From positions 1-50,381 of the forward strand of contig JAAZKX010000017.1 of NCBI GenBank assembly GCA_012799605.1: 50,381 bases of DNA, in the 5' to 3' direction. The translations under genes were made by a program, and so were the position numbers. Within the stretch, counting starts at the first letter, position 1. Every line of letters begins with the position of its first letter. This DNA is from Bacillota bacterium (GTDB lineage: Bacteria; Bacillota; DTU030; DUMP01). Shown here in pieces: positions 1,668 to 8,623 of this stretch. The notes below the pieces were generated by a model. It had not been told where the DNA came from, ran no database searches, and worked only from the letters and a program-made list of their open reading frames with translations.

Positions 1668-3374
1668 TCATTTATTCTGCAATAATTGTTCCGCATGTCG
1701 CAGGACTACAGGGTTTATGCTCGATCCGGCCAGCATTCGGGCCAGCTCTTGCACCCGGGCTGTCGAAGATAATTTATCCATTCTGGTGTAAGTTTTACCA
1801 GCGATGGTCTCTTTGTAAATATAATAATGTGTGTCCCCTCTGGCAGCAATTTGCGGCAAATGGGTAATACAAATCACCTGATGAAAACTGCTTACCTGTT
1901 CCAGTTTCAAACCTACCTTTTCGGCCGCCCGTCCCCCGATGCCAGCATCCACTTCGTCAAAAATCAGCGTCGGCACATCATCGGTATCGGCTAATACCGT
2001 CTTTATTGCCAACATGGTACGGGCTATCTCCCCCCCGGAGGCAATTTTTGCCAACGGTTGCGCCATTTCACCAGGATTAGCTGCTAGCAAAAATTCGGCT
2101 TGTTCAAATCCAGTTGGTCCAATTTTGAGTTTTCGCCCGTCATAGCTTAGGCCTGTGCCTTCTTCCTGCACCAAAAAAGATACCTGTAGTTGAGCCTTTT
2201 CCATGCCTAGATCAGCTAATTCATCTTGCACTTCTTGTTGAAAAACAGCTGCCGTTCGCCGCCGTTTACTAGTTAATCGCCCTGCAGCTTCAGCCAATTG
2301 TTTTTTTATCTGAACCAATTCATCAGCTAATTTGGTTTGGTCGATTTGCTCCTTTTCCAATCGTGCCAATTCATCGGCTGCAGTTTGGGCATGCTGCAAA
2401 ATGGAAGGTATGTCGGGCCCATACTTTCTGGCCAGAGATCGGATCAATTGTAGCCTGTCTTCTACCTCACTCAAGCGGTGAGGGTCTTGGGGAAAGTCTT
2501 CTTGGTATTGCCGCAGCTTAGGTACTAGCTCCTCCAAGTTGTATAAGTTCGTGGTTAATTCTTTGCTTATTGCCGCCAACCTTTCGTCTATCTTTGCAAC
2601 CTGATCGAGGCAAACCTGAGCCTGTCCTACCAGATCAACGGCGCCTTGCTCGGGTCCACCATGTAAAAGTACATATGCGTTGGCTGCAGCTTCTAACAAA
2701 CTTTCGCGTTGTTTTAAGCGTTCTTTTTCTTGCTCCAGCTCCTCTTTTTCACCGAGTTCCAACCCGGCAGCTTCAATCTCTTCTATTTGATATTTGAGCA
2801 AATCTATTCTTTGAGCCCGTTCCCTCTGAGCCTGTTCAAGATTTTCTATCGCAGTTTTCAATTTACTGTACCGGGAGTATAAATCGCGCACTTTCTTAGC
2901 TAAAGCTAACTGGTCAGGGCCACCAAAAGCATCCAGAAAAGCTAAGTGCGTTGCCGAGCGTAATAGGGATTGATGCTGATGTTGGCCATGTATATCTACC
3001 AGTTCTTGGGCAACTTCCTTTAATTGCATCGTAGTTACAAGGCGCCCATTTAGGCGGCAATAATTGCGTCCGGATATATTTAATTCACGCGTTAATATCA
3101 AGCGGCGATCGGCTATGGGGATTCCTATTTTATTCAACAGGTTCATTAGTCTAGATCCCGGTTCTAGGGAGAATATGGCTTCAACCAGCGCAGACGATGC
3201 TCCGGTGCGCAAAAAATCGGACGAGGCTCTTTCTCCCAAGGCCATACCCAATGCATCGATAATAATTGACTTTCCAGCCCCTGTTTCACCTGATATGATG
3301 TTTAACCCGGGCCCAAATTCTATTGCAAGTTTGTCAATCAAAGCGAAGTTGCAAATGGAAATAGCCTCTAACAA
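1668..3374 (-). CDS. recN: RecN, SMC-like DNA repair ATPase
   Basis: Cytoplasmic SMC-like ATPase that acts early at double-strand breaks. About 568 aa, normal for the family. Walker A GETGAGKS is near residue 33. A long heptad-rich coiled coil fills the middle (~150-370). The signature and Walker B region (ASGGE, LIFDEVDAGIGG) is near 440-475. The TTG at 3374 is preferred because AAGGTGG lies 5 nt upstream and RecN usually begins within 12 residues of the first strand. An in-frame GTG at 3383 is possible. The argR stop is just upstream, so the two are probably co-transcribed. Confidence 0.96.
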   Translation of the reverse strand: MLEAISICNFALIDKLAIEFGPGLNIISGETGAGKSIIIDALGMALGERASSDFLRTGASSALVEAIFSLEPGSRLMNLLNKIGIPIADRRLILTRELNISGRNYCRLNGRLVTTMQLKEVAQELVDIHGQHQHQSLLRSATHLAFLDAFGGPDQLALAKKVRDLYSRYSKLKTAIENLEQAQRERAQRIDLLKYQIEEIEAAGLELGEKEELEQEKERLKQRESLLEAAANAYVLLHGGPEQGAVDLVGQAQVCLDQVAKIDERLAAISKELTTNLYNLEELVPKLRQYQEDFPQDPHRLSEVEDRLQLIRSLARKYGPDIPSILQHAQTAADELARLEKEQIDQTKLADELVQIKKQLAEAAGRLTSKRRRTAAVFQQEVQDELADLGMEKAQLQVSFLVQEEGTGLSYDGRKLKIGPTGFEQAEFLLAANPGEMAQPLAKIASGGEIARTMLAIKTVLADTDDVPTLIFDEVDAGIGGRAAEKVGLKLEQVSSFHQVICITHLPQIAARGDTHYYIYKETIAGKTYTRMDKLSSTARVQELARMLAGSSINPVVLRHAEQLLQNK

Positions 3375-3863: not shown

Positions 3864-4742
3864 TTACTTGGGCTCTGACATGCTGCAGTTACCATCGAAC
3901 AAGCATACCCGTAATGCTTGGTAGAACTTTTGTTCCGGCAACCGAATAAACTTTATTGTCTCGTTGGATAAGGTAACTTTTACCTCGTCACCCTGTTCCA
4001 GCGAATAAGCAGACTGACCGTCAATTGAGATCATGATATCGCCTTTATGGGCCAAAATGTGGGCTCTAAATGTTTCTTGGTCAGATATGATCAAACTACG
4101 CGCATCGAGTGCATGGGCGCAAATAGGCGTAATAACCAAGCATTTTAAGGCAGGATTGACGATAGGGCCACCCGCTGATAAAGAATACGCTGTCGAGCCG
4201 GTGGCCGTAGCCGCAATTACGCCATCGCCACGATATGTGGCTAAATATTCATCGCCAATGTAACATGCCACTTGTATCCGGGCAAAGCCTTTTTTTGTAA
4301 TAACCACATCATTTACTGCTCTGAATTCTCCCAGGGCTTGTCCCTGACGGTAGATTGTTGCTTGAGCCAGGTTCCGTTCTTCTAAGGAATAGTGACCGGA
4401 AACCAAATCCGAAAACAGCTGCTCCAAATGCTCCGGCTCGGCTGCCGTCAAAAACCCCAAGTGACCTAAATTTATTCCCAAAATTGGAATTCCTGCTGGT
4501 GCAAACAAGCGGGCTGTATTCAACAAGGTACCATCGCCGCCTAGCGAAATGACCAAATCAGCCCAATGTCTTAGTTCTGCGAGCGTTTTTGCTTGCCCGG
4601 GATAATCTAGAAATTCGGCGTCGACTGGCAATAAACCTGTATTGAGTAAATGCTCCTGGCAGTATGTAATCAGCTGGCGCCCCAACTTATGGGCCCGCGT
4701 TTTTTCTTTGTTAACTACAATGGCTATGTTCTTCATGTTCAT
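3864..4742 (-). CDS. nadK: NAD kinase
   Basis: ATP- or polyphosphate-dependent phosphorylation of NAD to NADP in the cytoplasm. 292 aa. The signature GGDGTLL (~72) and the NDVV motif (~140) are intact, and the glycine-rich loop ATGSTAYSLSAGGP is present. The reading frame is open to 5006, but that extension overlaps the upstream gene. The ATG at 4742 has GGGGG 8 nt upstream and gives the normal family N-terminus (MNMKNIAIVVN). Only 2 nt separate it from the preceding gene. Confidence 0.95.
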   Translation of the reverse strand: MNMKNIAIVVNKEKTRAHKLGRQLITYCQEHLLNTGLLPVDAEFLDYPGQAKTLAELRHWADLVISLGGDGTLLNTARLFAPAGIPILGINLGHLGFLTAAEPEHLEQLFSDLVSGHYSLEERNLAQATIYRQGQALGEFRAVNDVVITKKGFARIQVACYIGDEYLATYRGDGVIAATATGSTAYSLSAGGPIVNPALKCLVITPICAHALDARSLIISDQETFRAHILAHKGDIMISIDGQSAYSLEQGDEVKVTLSNETIKFIRLPEQKFYQALRVCLFDGNCSMSEPK

Positions 4743-4744
4743 TT

Positions 4745-5263
4745 CTATATCCCCCTGCCTAGCAGATAAATAATTATGCCTCCCAGCGTAATAATGATTA
4801 TGCCCAAAGCAGCGATCAGTAGTATATTGTCCCGGTTCAGCGGCCAGCAAAACGATATTTCCTGCCACGTTTTTTTGTTCATATTCACAAGTAAAATGCT
4901 GTTGGCCCGAAACGCCAGCTGGTATTCCAGCAGCTGGCGGCGCGTTCGTGCCGTCAATCTCGAATGAGTATGTCCGCTTTTTACCTCTACCACGTACTTG
5001 CGCCAACCTTTTTTTACAATGAAATCTGCCCTGATCGTAGTTGTGCGCGGCTTACCATTGATATAAACCAACGAGGATGCAGTAGGCTGGCGGGATACAA
5101 TTTGAAACCCTTGCCGTTCCAATAGATTTGCAGCCTCTTCTTCGGATCGTTTGGCTCCTTTAAATTGCCATTTCCGTAGCCAACGCCGCCAAACTGTGTG
5201 GCCAAAATAAAGGCCTGTCACACCCAATATAATCCCCAGAACAAACACGTCGCCCCGAGTCAC
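4745..5263 (-). CDS. Membrane-anchored PD-(D/E)XK nuclease-like protein
   Basis: 172-aa protein with no name I can assign. It has one membrane segment at the N-terminus (~4-22) and another at the C-terminus (~147-168), bracketing a soluble domain. That domain carries the pattern of PD-(D/E)XK nucleases: an acidic helix (SEEEAANLLERQGF, ~40-53), Asp80 in RADFIV, and Glu93-Val-Lys95 in VVEVKSG, followed by a helix with Gln110. The GTG start has GGGGGAG 8 nt upstream. It sits tightly between tlyA and nadK, so it is probably co-transcribed. Nuclease activity is inference from the motif; substrate unknown. Confidence 0.75.
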   Translation of the reverse strand: MTRGDVFVLGIILGVTGLYFGHTVWRRWLRKWQFKGAKRSEEEAANLLERQGFQIVSRQPTASSLVYINGKPRTTTIRADFIVKKGWRKYVVEVKSGHTHSRLTARTRRQLLEYQLAFRANSILLVNMNKKTWQEISFCWPLNRDNILLIAALGIIIITLGGIIIYLLGRGI

Positions 5264-5347
5264 TGTATGTTCTCCCCCATTTTTCTAGTCCGGCTACCCC
5301 TGCTGGTCAGAAACGCTGGTTCCAATAAGGGTTGTGTTTTATGCATT

Positions 5348-6148
5348 TTAAGCCAGTTTAGCGTGGGCTTCCTTTACCACCTGATCGATGTCCAGGGTTG
5401 TTTTTCTGCAGCCAGCGCACGCATAAACTAGGTACTCGATATTCCCCTTGGCCCCAGTAATGGGTGAATAATCAAGACCGGCGCAGTTTAAGTGTTGATC
5501 AAGTAGCTCTACAATCGCTACCACTACTTCCCGGTGTAATAGGGGATCTCTAACAATTCCCCCTTTTCCGACCTTTCCCTTCCCGGCTTCAAACTGGGGT
5601 TTTATCAAGGCCACTATTTCCTTTCGGCCCACCAGCACATCGAGGATCGGCGGTATTACTTTCTTTAGCGAAATAAAAGATACATCGATACAAGCTATTT
5701 CCGGTCGGGGGACCAACTGCTGTGCGGTTAAGTATCTAATATTAGTGCGTTCCAATACTGTCACCCGGGGGTTCTGCCTCAGATCCCAGGCCAGTTGGCC
5801 ATAACCGACGTCAACCGCGTATACTTTGGCCGCTCCATGTTGTAAGGCACAGTCGGTAAACCCTCCGGTTGATGCCCCGGCATCCAAAACAATCTTACCT
5901 TTAAAATCCAGGCCGAAACTATGTATGGCTTTTTCCAGTTTTAGCCCACCACGGCTCACGTAGGGGGAATCATCTTCCAGCAACACCAGTTCGGCCTCAG
6001 TTCGAACTTTAGTTCCCGATTTATCAATAAGGCGTCCATCTACTAAAACCTTTCCGGCTAAAATATGGGCTTGAGCCCGGTCGCGGCTGGCTAGTAGACC
6101 CCGTTCTACCAGAAGTAAGTCGAGTCTTTTACGTCTCACTAATATCAC
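5348..6148 (-). CDS. tlyA: TlyA family rRNA 2'-O-methyltransferase
   Basis: 266 aa: N-terminal S4 RNA-binding domain (~5-65, RKRLDLLLVERGL) and an FtsJ-like SAM-dependent methyltransferase domain (DAGASTGGFTDC, ~88-99). TlyA proteins 2'-O-methylate cytidines in 16S and/or 23S rRNA. It overlaps the end of dxs by 20 nt from a GTG at 6148. A second in-frame GTG 9 nt later is also possible, since the AAGGG site lies between ideal spacings for both. The dxs-tlyA-nadK-argR-recN order is conserved in Firmicutes. Confidence 0.92.
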   Translation of the reverse strand: MILVRRKRLDLLLVERGLLASRDRAQAHILAGKVLVDGRLIDKSGTKVRTEAELVLLEDDSPYVSRGGLKLEKAIHSFGLDFKGKIVLDAGASTGGFTDCALQHGAAKVYAVDVGYGQLAWDLRQNPRVTVLERTNIRYLTAQQLVPRPEIACIDVSFISLKKVIPPILDVLVGRKEIVALIKPQFEAGKGKVGKGGIVRDPLLHREVVVAIVELLDQHLNCAGLDYSPITGAKGNIEYLVYACAGCRKTTLDIDQVVKEAHAKLA

Positions 6149-8039
6149 ATGCCCTTAATTTTATTTCGGCTGGGTTTTTAGAGGTAAAATAATTATAAAA
6201 ACTGGTTATAAGGCTTTGTTCATCGAGCCCGCACAGTTTCAACTGTTCTGCCCGGCTGCCATGGTCAATAAATTGATCTTTCACTCCGAACCGTTTTACC
6301 GGAATGTTTAGGCCAGCCTCATTAAATAGTTCTAAAACGGCACTGCCAAAGCCGCCGGCTAAAGCATGGTCTTCAACCGTAGCAATTAGCCGATGGCAAC
6401 GGGCCAAATCCAAGATCAAATCCCTCGGCAAAGGCTTCACGAAACGGATATCGCATACCCCGATATCAAGGCCCTGTTGGGTCAAAGCTTGAGCAGCTCT
6501 GAGGCTGGGCAATGCCATCGCCCCTGCAGCCAACACCATTCCACCAGCTCCTTCTTTTAGCAACTCTCCTTCAGCCCAACCAGCTGTGCCAATTATTTCC
6601 GGATCGGCTTCGACCTCGGCCCGAGGGTATCGAATCGCTACCGGCCCCGGGTAATCAACAGCGTAATTTAGCATTTGGTCTAATTCCCTCGCATCGCGGG
6701 GGGCCAATATATTTATGTTGGGTATATGACGCAAGTAGGCAAAATCAAATAATCCTTGGTGGGTAGCACCATCTTCACCGACAAGACCAGCCCGGTCTAA
6801 ACAAAAAGTAACAGGAAGGTTTTGTAAACAAACATCGTGGACAATCTGATCGTAAGCCCGCTGCAAAAACGTACTATAAATAGTTACCACCGGGCGCTTG
6901 CCCCCGGCTGCCAAAGCAGCTGCTAAAGTTACAGCATGTTGCTCGGCGATCCCAACATCGAATATCCGCTCCGGATAACGTTGGGCAAACTCGCTTAAGC
7001 CAGTACCGGAAATCATGGCTGCGCAGACCGCAACCAAATCCGGCTTCTTTTCCGCTAGTTTTAACATCGCCCGGGAAAAAGCATCTGTATAAGTTGTGCC
7101 GCCGCTTGCCAAAGGCTTGCCGCTGCTGACCTCAAAAGGGCCGATACCATGAAATTTGCAGGGCCTTTCTTCTGCTGGGGGATAACCCTTCCCTTTTTTG
7201 GTCAGTACATGGATCAGAACAGGCCCCCCTGCTTTACGGGCATGGGTAAAAACACTGCGCAATTCCGCAATGTTATGTCCGTCCAAGGGCCCAAAATAGG
7301 TGAAACCCAATTCTTCGAACAAAGTGCCCGGGATCAACATATAGCGCACCGCATCTTTAACCCGTTCCGCTGTTTTAGCCATTTGGGTTCCAATAGCCGG
7401 GATGCGTTTTAATAAAAACTCTATATCCTCCTTGAGCCGAAAATAGTTTGGATTCGATCTTAGTCTGGTTAAATACATGGATAACGCTCCTACATTAGGG
7501 CTTATCGACATTTTGTTGTCATTAAGTATAACTACAATTCGTTTTCTCAATTGTCCAGCGTGGTTTAAGGCCTCAAAGGCTAGGCCGGCTGTTAAAGAAC
7601 CATCGCCGATCACCGCGCTGATTACCCCATCCTGCCCTTCGAGGTCGCGGGCAATAGCATAACCTAAAGCAGCAGATATCGATGTGCTGCTATGGCCGAC
7701 CCCAAAATAATCATAGGAACTCTCGGAACGATTAGGGAACCCACTTAGGCCCCCAGACGTACGCAAACTAAAAAAGCGCTCCCGCCGGCCGGTTAGCAGC
7801 TTATGGGCATAAGCCTGATGGCCAACATCCCAAATTATCTTATCTTCCGGTTTATTAAAAACTGAATGCAAAGCTACAGTCAGCTCCACTGTCCCGAGGT
7901 TCGGGGCCAAATGTCCCCCATTGACCGCAACGGTATTTATTATTGTTTCTCTCAATTCCCGGCATAGAGCTTTTAATTCTGGTATATTGAGGCCCTCGAG
8001 GTCGGATGGGCTGTTAATTTGGGCTAATATTCCTGCCAT
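6129..8039 (-). CDS. dxs: 1-deoxy-D-xylulose-5-phosphate synthase
   Basis: First enzyme of the MEP isoprenoid pathway: pyruvate plus glyceraldehyde 3-phosphate to DXP, with thiamine diphosphate. 636 aa, full length. The ThDP/Mg motif GDGSLTAG...N is at ~145-175, the catalytic glutamate lies in VGIAEQHAV (~367), and the C-terminal transketolase domain is complete. GGAGGT is 8 nt before the ATG, which overlaps the upstream stop as TAATG. It is functionally linked to ispA about 2 kb upstream; the OLE RNA gene lies between the two. Confidence 0.97.
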   Translation of the reverse strand: MAGILAQINSPSDLEGLNIPELKALCRELRETIINTVAVNGGHLAPNLGTVELTVALHSVFNKPEDKIIWDVGHQAYAHKLLTGRRERFFSLRTSGGLSGFPNRSESSYDYFGVGHSSTSISAALGYAIARDLEGQDGVISAVIGDGSLTAGLAFEALNHAGQLRKRIVVILNDNKMSISPNVGALSMYLTRLRSNPNYFRLKEDIEFLLKRIPAIGTQMAKTAERVKDAVRYMLIPGTLFEELGFTYFGPLDGHNIAELRSVFTHARKAGGPVLIHVLTKKGKGYPPAEERPCKFHGIGPFEVSSGKPLASGGTTYTDAFSRAMLKLAEKKPDLVAVCAAMISGTGLSEFAQRYPERIFDVGIAEQHAVTLAAALAAGGKRPVVTIYSTFLQRAYDQIVHDVCLQNLPVTFCLDRAGLVGEDGATHQGLFDFAYLRHIPNINILAPRDARELDQMLNYAVDYPGPVAIRYPRAEVEADPEIIGTAGWAEGELLKEGAGGMVLAAGAMALPSLRAAQALTQQGLDIGVCDIRFVKPLPRDLILDLARCHRLIATVEDHALAGGFGSAVLELFNEAGLNIPVKRFGVKDQFIDHGSRAEQLKLCGLDEQSLITSFYNYFTSKNPAEIKLRACDISET

Positions 8040-8623
8040 TATTTTTTACCTCCACTACCGTTTTTTTTCAATACTTCCCGACCGCAAATACGCTCGACCA
8101 ACCAAAGAACACGTCCCATTTTCAATGTTATGATATTAGCATGCCAGAGTGAAAAATGTTTACCCACAGCCTTTCCGCCCACTGTCACAGCAGATACCAA
8201 GGCTACAATGGCTAAAGAAGCCCATTCTTCCTTGATAGGATAATGCTTGGCCAAACCAAACACAATTGTAGCTCCAACAGCCCCCGATAAAGTACCAGCA
8301 ATGTCACCTACCAGATCATTACACAAGTTGCTTATAGCGGGCGCCTGCCGCCGTAGGCGGACAGCTTCACGTGCGCCCAGGATTCTTTTCGCCGCCATGG
8401 CGTGAAGCGACGGTTCATCGGCTACCGTTACAGCTACCCCCATAACATCAAAAAGAATACCTAATCCTATAATAGCCAATAGGACTAGAAAAGCCAAAAA
8501 AAATGGTACCGTGCGTACCACATGTCCTGAACAAAAACCCAATAGCAAGGAAAGCGCCAGGGTTATCAAACCCACTTTCAATCCGTGGTGCCATGTACTG
8601 ATCCTCGTACTTTTGAGCTTCAC
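8039..8623 (-). CDS. oapA: OapA, OLE RNA-associated membrane protein
   Basis: 194 aa, about four predicted membrane segments (~17-35, 41-66, 104-125, 134-153). It carries a DxxxD motif (Asp103-Leu-Val-Gly-Asp107, in CNDLVGDIAG) and a polar FDVMGVAVTVADE stretch. Clostridial homologues are often labelled CorB/DUF21-like. Its position directly downstream of the ~630-nt structured non-coding gene and upstream of dxs matches OapA, the protein that binds OLE RNA and places it at the membrane in Bacillus halodurans. From memory, mutations near D104/G107 in that protein are disruptive; this motif aligns one residue away. GTG start; GGAG 9 nt upstream. Confidence 0.85.
   Translation of the reverse strand: MKLKSTRISTWHHGLKVGLITLALSLLLGFCSGHVVRTVPFFLAFLVLLAIIGLGILFDVMGVAVTVADEPSLHAMAAKRILGAREAVRLRRQAPAISNLCNDLVGDIAGTLSGAVGATIVFGLAKHYPIKEEWASLAIVALVSAVTVGGKAVGKHFSLWHANIITLKMGRVLWLVERICGREVLKKNGSGGKK

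Follow-up and report, generated by a model that had tools for sequence, protein, structure and literature searches.

A predicted membrane-anchored PD-(D/E)XK protein encoded between tlyA and nadK in Bacillota, and the uneven conservation of its catalytic triad

Proteins that join a PD-(D/E)XK domain to a membrane helix have been described previously. COG4741 was predicted in 2005 to consist of a one-helix membrane tether and a minimal YraN-related PD-(D/E)XK domain on the cytosolic side, and RmuC was described as carrying a membrane helix together with a PD-(D/E)XK domain (both in the excerpt of PMC1189080). RecB-like nucleases are defined by a set of four motifs (PMC2602864, in excerpt), and Cas4 proteins contain four Cys residues for an Fe-S cluster (PMC4176176, in excerpt).

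Here we analyze gene X, a reading frame in a 50,381-nucleotide stretch of DNA from a Bacillota bacterium (hereafter the window, meaning that whole stretch). A preliminary description of the window had proposed that gene X encodes a membrane-tethered nuclease, and that no description of it was known. The latter statement stands for the gene X family, for which we found none in the open PMC literature (weak evidence), but not for the architecture, given the accounts of COG4741 and RmuC in the excerpt of PMC1189080. We describe the gene X protein as a new family within a kind, the membrane-tethered PD-(D/E)XK nucleases, that was already described.

Gene X and its place between tlyA and nadK

In the window, gene X belongs to a co-directional series composed of xseA, xseB, ispA, a gene for a DUF212 protein, a gene for a weakly CNNM-like membrane protein, dxs, tlyA, X, nadK, argR, recN and spoIVB (features of the locus are given in Table 1). 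The identities of tlyA, nadK, argR and recN were confirmed with Pfam, and the names xseA, xseB, ispA and dxs are presumed, having been assigned from the sequence. Gene X is separated from tlyA by 84 nt and from the nadK ATG by 2 nt (8 nt to the next ATG). The position of the AGGGGG sequence, together with the spacing survey described below, indicates that gene X and nadK are likely translated in sequence. The CNNM-like protein (194 aa; window 8039-8623, minus strand; E 0.0017, under the cut-off) is encoded upstream of dxs; tblastn matches to it were found in 52 of the 74 Bacillota loci, and where present it precedes dxs or tlyA. Between window positions 3300 and 9400 there were 15 terminator-like patterns vs 7.8 in shuffles (sd 3.0), and 6 of the 15 represent a single overlapping site at 7177.

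Table 1. Coordinates of gene X, its sequence features and its neighbors in the window
Feature	Position	Strand	Basis or remark
Gene X, predicted 172-aa membrane-tethered PD-(D/E)XK protein	4745..5263	-	GTG start, stop included
Ribosome-binding-like GGGGGAG	5272..5278 (read 5278-5272)	-	8 nt before the gene X GTG
AGGGGG within the gene X 3' end	4751..4756	-	8 nt before the nadK ATG at 4742
First membrane segment, ~residues 6-24	5192..5248	-	hydropathy and model; within helix 3-50, leading into catalytic helix A
Nuclease domain (predicted), ~residues 36-138	4850..5158	-	model and structural matches
E41, motif I	5141..5143	-	alignment
D80, motif II	5024..5026	-	alignment
E93-V-K95, motif III	4979..4987	-	alignment
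Q110xxxY114, RecB-type motif	4922..4936	-	alignment; PMC2602864 (excerpt)
Second membrane helix, ~residues 144-169	4757..4834	-	hydropathy and model
nadK, NAD kinase	3864..4742 or 3864..4736 (two candidate starts)	-	Pfam
tlyA, S4 and FtsJ-like methyltransferase	5348..6148	-	Pfam

With the window protein as the query, matches were found in 8 of the 13 genomes of its class (8/8 in its own family and 0/5 in the other family), and of 398 genomes from the phylum, 72 matched a profile built from those eight, representing 53 of 266 genera; in one of the 72 (G037) the match is a fragment riddled with stop codons that yielded no ORF. A scan of named genomes with the single window protein gave no relative, but the profile scan did, returning 35 loci: 6 genomes already seen, 4 records titled Peptococcaceae and 25 loci outside of Bacillota. 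The records of these 25 are titled Myxococcota-type, Planctomycetota or Proteobacteria (Pseudomonadota), 3 of them without a phylum in the NCBI ranks, although the titles are those of metagenome bins and may be wrong, above all for Pseudomonadota. Neither viral contigs (one scan, 10 stretches and a pattern search) nor plasmids (one search with the window protein as the sole query) yielded a confirmed relative.

Gene X is directly preceded by tlyA and directly followed by nadK on the same strand in 63 of the 74 Bacillota loci, an arrangement also conserved in the four Peptococcaceae-titled records (L040, L042, L043 and L057). Considered singly, nadK directly follows in 71/74 loci and tlyA directly precedes in 65/74. 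Among the 11 exceptions, L074 lies at a contig end, tlyA is fragmentary or absent in L112 and L126, the genomes of L106, L113 and L116 carry tlyA at another site, L070, L076 and L117 have sequence in between, and the X-nadK gap is wider in L128 and L130. At L070, argR is directly after X and nadK was not found between them, and at L126 (G022) the genome has no tlyA match, yet X and nadK stay together after dxs. The X-nadK gap has a median of 5 nt and is ≤30 nt in 66 of 74 loci measured, while the tlyA-X gap has a median of 52 nt and is ≤30 nt in 20 of 68; thus, gene X is more tightly spaced to nadK than to tlyA. Because matches recur in the class, in the phylum and between tlyA and nadK in these numbers, gene X is not a chance reading frame. 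These results uphold the preliminary description, which gave no strand, in treating this frame, GTG-initiated and on the minus strand, as a real gene and in assigning it to a conserved household operon, the neighbors found being household genes in a survey that looked only for nine window proteins of the tlyA-nadK operon. We also considered a defence-island reading, which is not favored because, with only those operon proteins looked for, the neighbors found in Bacillota are household genes, and because neither the one viral-contig scan nor the one plasmid search confirmed a relative.

As an X-negative set we used the 40 loci with the best tlyA scores. In 34 of these, tlyA and nadK are neighbors, ≤303 nt apart by BLAST ends; two of the others have a reverse-strand gene between them, and four, including one at a contig end, lack nadK within the stretch. 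A hidden, diverged X in the 40 loci was rejected, as the best E-value with a wide profile was only 0.58. In the X-negative genomes of L159 (852-1361, minus strand) and L172 (1094-1591, minus strand), an opposite-strand gene that is lipoprotein-like, judged by its start, lies between tlyA and nadK.

Outside of Bacillota, neither tlyA nor nadK was found near X in any of the 25 loci (0/25) in the stretches examined, some of which were short. Ten proteins encoded near X in these genomes were scanned; protein kinases, a metallo-beta-lactamase-fold protein, a GT87 glycosyltransferase and a trypsin-like protease were among them, and no functional theme was shared by the ten. Seven non-Bacillota loci (L056, L058, L059, L060, L065, L066 and L068) have in common a BLAST cluster of proteins within ~5 kb of X; two of its members (L068, L066) were identified by profile, both as metallo-beta-lactamase-fold hydrolases.

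Predicted fold and membrane topology

An AlphaFold2 model of the gene X protein, built with 35 aligned sequences (mean pLDDT 93.3, pTM 0.71), has the helix-strand order of the PD-(D/E)XK superfamily core, with a helix at residues 3-50 in which the membrane segment leads into helix A and E41, followed by strands, a helix at 105-117 (Q110, Y114) and a helix at 144-169. The model of a Myxococcota-like relative without the second membrane helix (L061) showed the same order (pLDDT 94.6, pTM 0.80). The leading Foldseek matches were SSO0001 (1.1e-5), which we take to be a Cas4, AdnA (1.5e-5), the Argonaute-associated Cas4-family protein ACE1 (7.0e-5) and AddAB (1.1e-4). With VIA, the top row was the tRNA-splicing endonuclease 2zyz_C, with a Z of 11.0 but an rmsd of 5.1, and matches were also obtained to the UPF0102 protein 3fov (Z 10.8, rmsd 2.2, 87 aligned) and to Hjc 1gef (Z 9.8, rmsd 2.9, 89 aligned). 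The leading solved matches were mostly superfamily nucleases or proteins containing one, at a moderate level of similarity (query-normalised TM-scores of 0.35-0.46 in the best Foldseek rows, small targets excepted; VIA itself notes that a best Z of 7-8 is common without true kinship). Sequence profiles agreed weakly, with 15 of 35 members reaching PDDEXK_1 and 6 reaching UPF0102 at E 0.01. The gene X protein is confidently predicted by the modeling to have the PD-(D/E)XK core fold. The preliminary description had recognized a nuclease-like core in D80, E93, K95 and a following Gln, which is Q110; these residues are indeed present, and the fold predicted with AlphaFold2, Foldseek and VIA, along with the conservation of the motifs, supports that interpretation.

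Two hydrophobic segments flank the domain according to both the hydropathy scan and the model, as was previously proposed. The N-terminal segment was detected by the scan in all 98 rows of our alignment, which contains 74 rows from Bacillota and 24 from outside of it, and the C-terminal segment was found in 66/74 Bacillota rows and 10/24 others. The residues following the first segment carry more positive charge than those preceding it in 94/98 rows (70/74 Bacillota and 24/24 others). By the positive-inside rule for membrane proteins, this charge bias suggests a cytosolic nuclease domain, a topology that was derived from hydropathy and charge rather than from a trained predictor.

Conservation and loss of the active-site residues

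The full set of D80, E/D93 and K95 is found in 48/74 Bacillota rows and in 24/24 rows from elsewhere, a total of 72/98. The conservation anticipated for this triad was thus observed outside of Bacillota and in these 48 rows, but it is not general, since D, E/D or K is gone in 26/74 Bacillota rows. Among the intact rows, Q110 and Y114 are present in 72/72 and E41 in 71/72, compared with only 2/26 incomplete rows having both Q110 and Y114. Hence, E41, D80, E93, K95, Q110 and Y114 are kept or lost together, which is the behavior expected of one active site. The incomplete rows retain R108 in 24/26 and G52 in 26/26 cases, and 19/26 are located directly between tlyA and nadK.

The substitutions differ among lineages. 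K95 is changed to I in G006, which belongs to the window's own family, to N in the f11/f103/f119 clade, where D80 and E93 are retained, and to R in two rows of f39; the change of K95 to R is the sole change in L106 and L116, and f12, f69, f79 and f86 are among the further incomplete groups. A quick tree that excluded six catalytic columns requires five changes of state, loss and regain not being told apart, and this number is rough, as 34/95 inner branches are open and several rows (e.g., L131 and L125) are very long. The dN/dS ratio of the f11 clade was 0.09-0.17 (13/15 pairs computable), which indicates purifying selection, and the intact clades f38 and f91 gave similar values of 0.12-0.27 (7/10 pairs) and 0.15-0.22 (5/10 pairs), respectively, all of these being rough values with synonymous sites near saturation in many pairs. 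Other degenerate clades gave 0.22 for f69 (1/6 pairs), 0.22 and 0.43 for f12 (2/3 pairs) and no computable pair for f79 (0/3), and purifying selection among degenerate clades is established for f11 only. Repeated loss of the triad, while the gene and its position persisted, suggests a role without cutting for part of the family; given the proportion of incomplete Bacillota copies, cutting may be dispensable there.

Proposed function and comparison with known systems

The window protein contains the complete RecB-type motif set (E41, D80, E93xK95 and Q110xxxY114). We propose, with a probability of roughly 0.6, that the gene X protein is a small PD-(D/E)XK nuclease of the RecB-like QxxxY type, anchored in the membrane and facing the cytosol, and a putative DNase. 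Helix 1 would span the membrane and continue as catalytic helix A, and because of this continuity a rigid stalk would hold the metal site (E41, D80, E93 and K95) on the inner side of the membrane, some 2-3 nm away from it to judge from the length of the helix. Helix 2, where present, would bring the chain back to the membrane. The enzyme would hydrolyze DNA phosphodiesters in a metal-dependent manner, with Q110 and Y114 steadying the strand near the active site, and its substrate may be DNA ends or strands that reach the membrane, i.e., imported, extruded or trapped DNA. Copies without the full active site would perform a fold-dependent job, perhaps without cutting, of which the simplest would be binding of nucleic acid or a partner. 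The gene, its predicted fold, the motif conservation, the charge-based topology, the gene order, the joint motif loss and the purifying selection on one degenerate clade are computational results, while we infer catalysis, the choice of DNA over RNA and the process served alike. Two links to known processes were rejected using two sets of 38 genomes, X-positive and X-negative, selected from the 398: there was no signal for replacement of YraN by X (YraN in 36/38 vs 35/38) or for an association of X with competence (ComEC, PF03772, in 35/38 vs 37/38).

Three other explanations were weighed against a membrane-anchored DNase. It is improbable, in our judgment, that the substrate at the membrane is RNA, as would fit the neighboring tlyA, whose product is presumably an rRNA methyltransferase: tlyA adjoins gene X and tRNA-splicing endonucleases, including the top VIA row, are among the structural matches, but the protein has the motifs of RecB-like DNases and tlyA was present in none of the 25 non-Bacillota loci in the stretches examined. 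We give similarly little credence to a membrane guard against foreign DNA, be it phage or transforming DNA; while COG4741 has the same architecture and such a role was speculated for it (PMC1189080, in excerpt), gene X occupies a fixed place among household genes in Bacillota (nine operon proteins looked for), gave no confirmed relative in a single scan of viral contigs and a single search of plasmids, and frequently loses its triad.

Less remote, though still unlikely, is an explanation in which the shared, older function is to retain nucleic acid, or else a partner protein, at the membrane, so that some lineages kept the nuclease and others the holder only. Gene X would then, doubtfully, encode a widespread Bacillota household protein that uses a nuclease fold to anchor nucleic acid at the inner membrane, a membrane pseudo-nuclease with binding as its main job and cutting dropped in several lineages, in which the gene, its position and, for f11, selection on it have persisted. 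The incomplete Bacillota rows and their five state changes, the 19 of these rows still directly between tlyA and nadK, the low dN/dS of the f11 clade despite its K95 to N change, and the retention of R108 and G52 argue for this, as does a virus nucleocapsid protein that is a Cas4 derivative without catalytic residues (PMC4625639, in excerpt). However, catalysis is the best explanation for a full triad and QxxxY in 72/98 rows, and loss of one residue is no proof of inactivity, the change in L106 and L116 being merely K95 to R; active enzymes with a changed E and active QxxxY mutants are cited by a reviewer in the excerpt of PMC4625639.

As a predicted membrane-anchored DNase, gene X represents a defined candidate for a role in handling DNA at the inner membrane, both in part of Bacillota and in at least two other phyla. 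At one locus it offers both intact copies and copies lacking part of the catalytic set, a natural series for asking whether cells keep the cut or the grip. New here are the incomplete triad in 26/74 Bacillota copies, the five state changes, the joint loss of QxxxY and the purifying selection on one such clade.

The window protein reached no curated cut-off in Pfam or NCBIfam. It was 0.1 bit short for PDDEXK_3 (21.9 vs 22 bits) and also fell short for GxxExxY (19.3 vs 35), PDDEXK_1 (PF12705; 13.6 vs 22), NERD (PF08378; 14.9 vs 22.1) and UPF0102 (YraN, PF02021; 15.4 vs 23.6). The UPF0102 model was likewise missed by L040 (17.1) and L054 (19.2) and just passed by the homologue G094 (23.9 bits), and PDDEXK_1 was passed by 2 of 10 relatives tested (L046, 25.9; L056, 22.3), both being broad models; no family model specific to gene X was found in the libraries searched. 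The nuclease domains of RecB, AddB and AdnAB, along with Cas4, supply the leading Foldseek matches, but the gene X protein differs from them in having 172 aa without a helicase, a single Cys and membrane helices. The four-Cys set of Cas4 is absent (1 Cys in the window protein, median of 1 over the 98 rows), and PADLOC gave superfamily-level echoes only (e.g., Cas4, E 0.0029 for the window protein).

UPF0102/YraN is similar in fold (3fov) and in an hhalign comparison (probability of 92.7 over 78 columns, 9/20 YraN loci), whereas the gene X protein has membrane helices and QxxxY, and the window genome also has a separate true YraN. The hhalign comparison of alignments A2 and A3 is no evidence, since these have rows in common. 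PF10107 (Endonuc_Holl), which we take to be the Pfam counterpart of COG4741, had no match in the window's genome and was absent from the nine Pfam rows obtained with the window protein; in a control search it gave matches in Thermotoga and two archaea. RmuC shares the combination of a membrane helix and a PD-(D/E)XK domain (PMC1189080, in excerpt) but has coiled coils and further domains, and is set apart by description alone. COG4741 is described as mostly archaeal, and a second membrane helix is not described in the excerpt of PMC1189080; nevertheless, its N-terminal membrane helix and YraN-related nuclease domain recur in the gene X protein, making it the closest described architecture.
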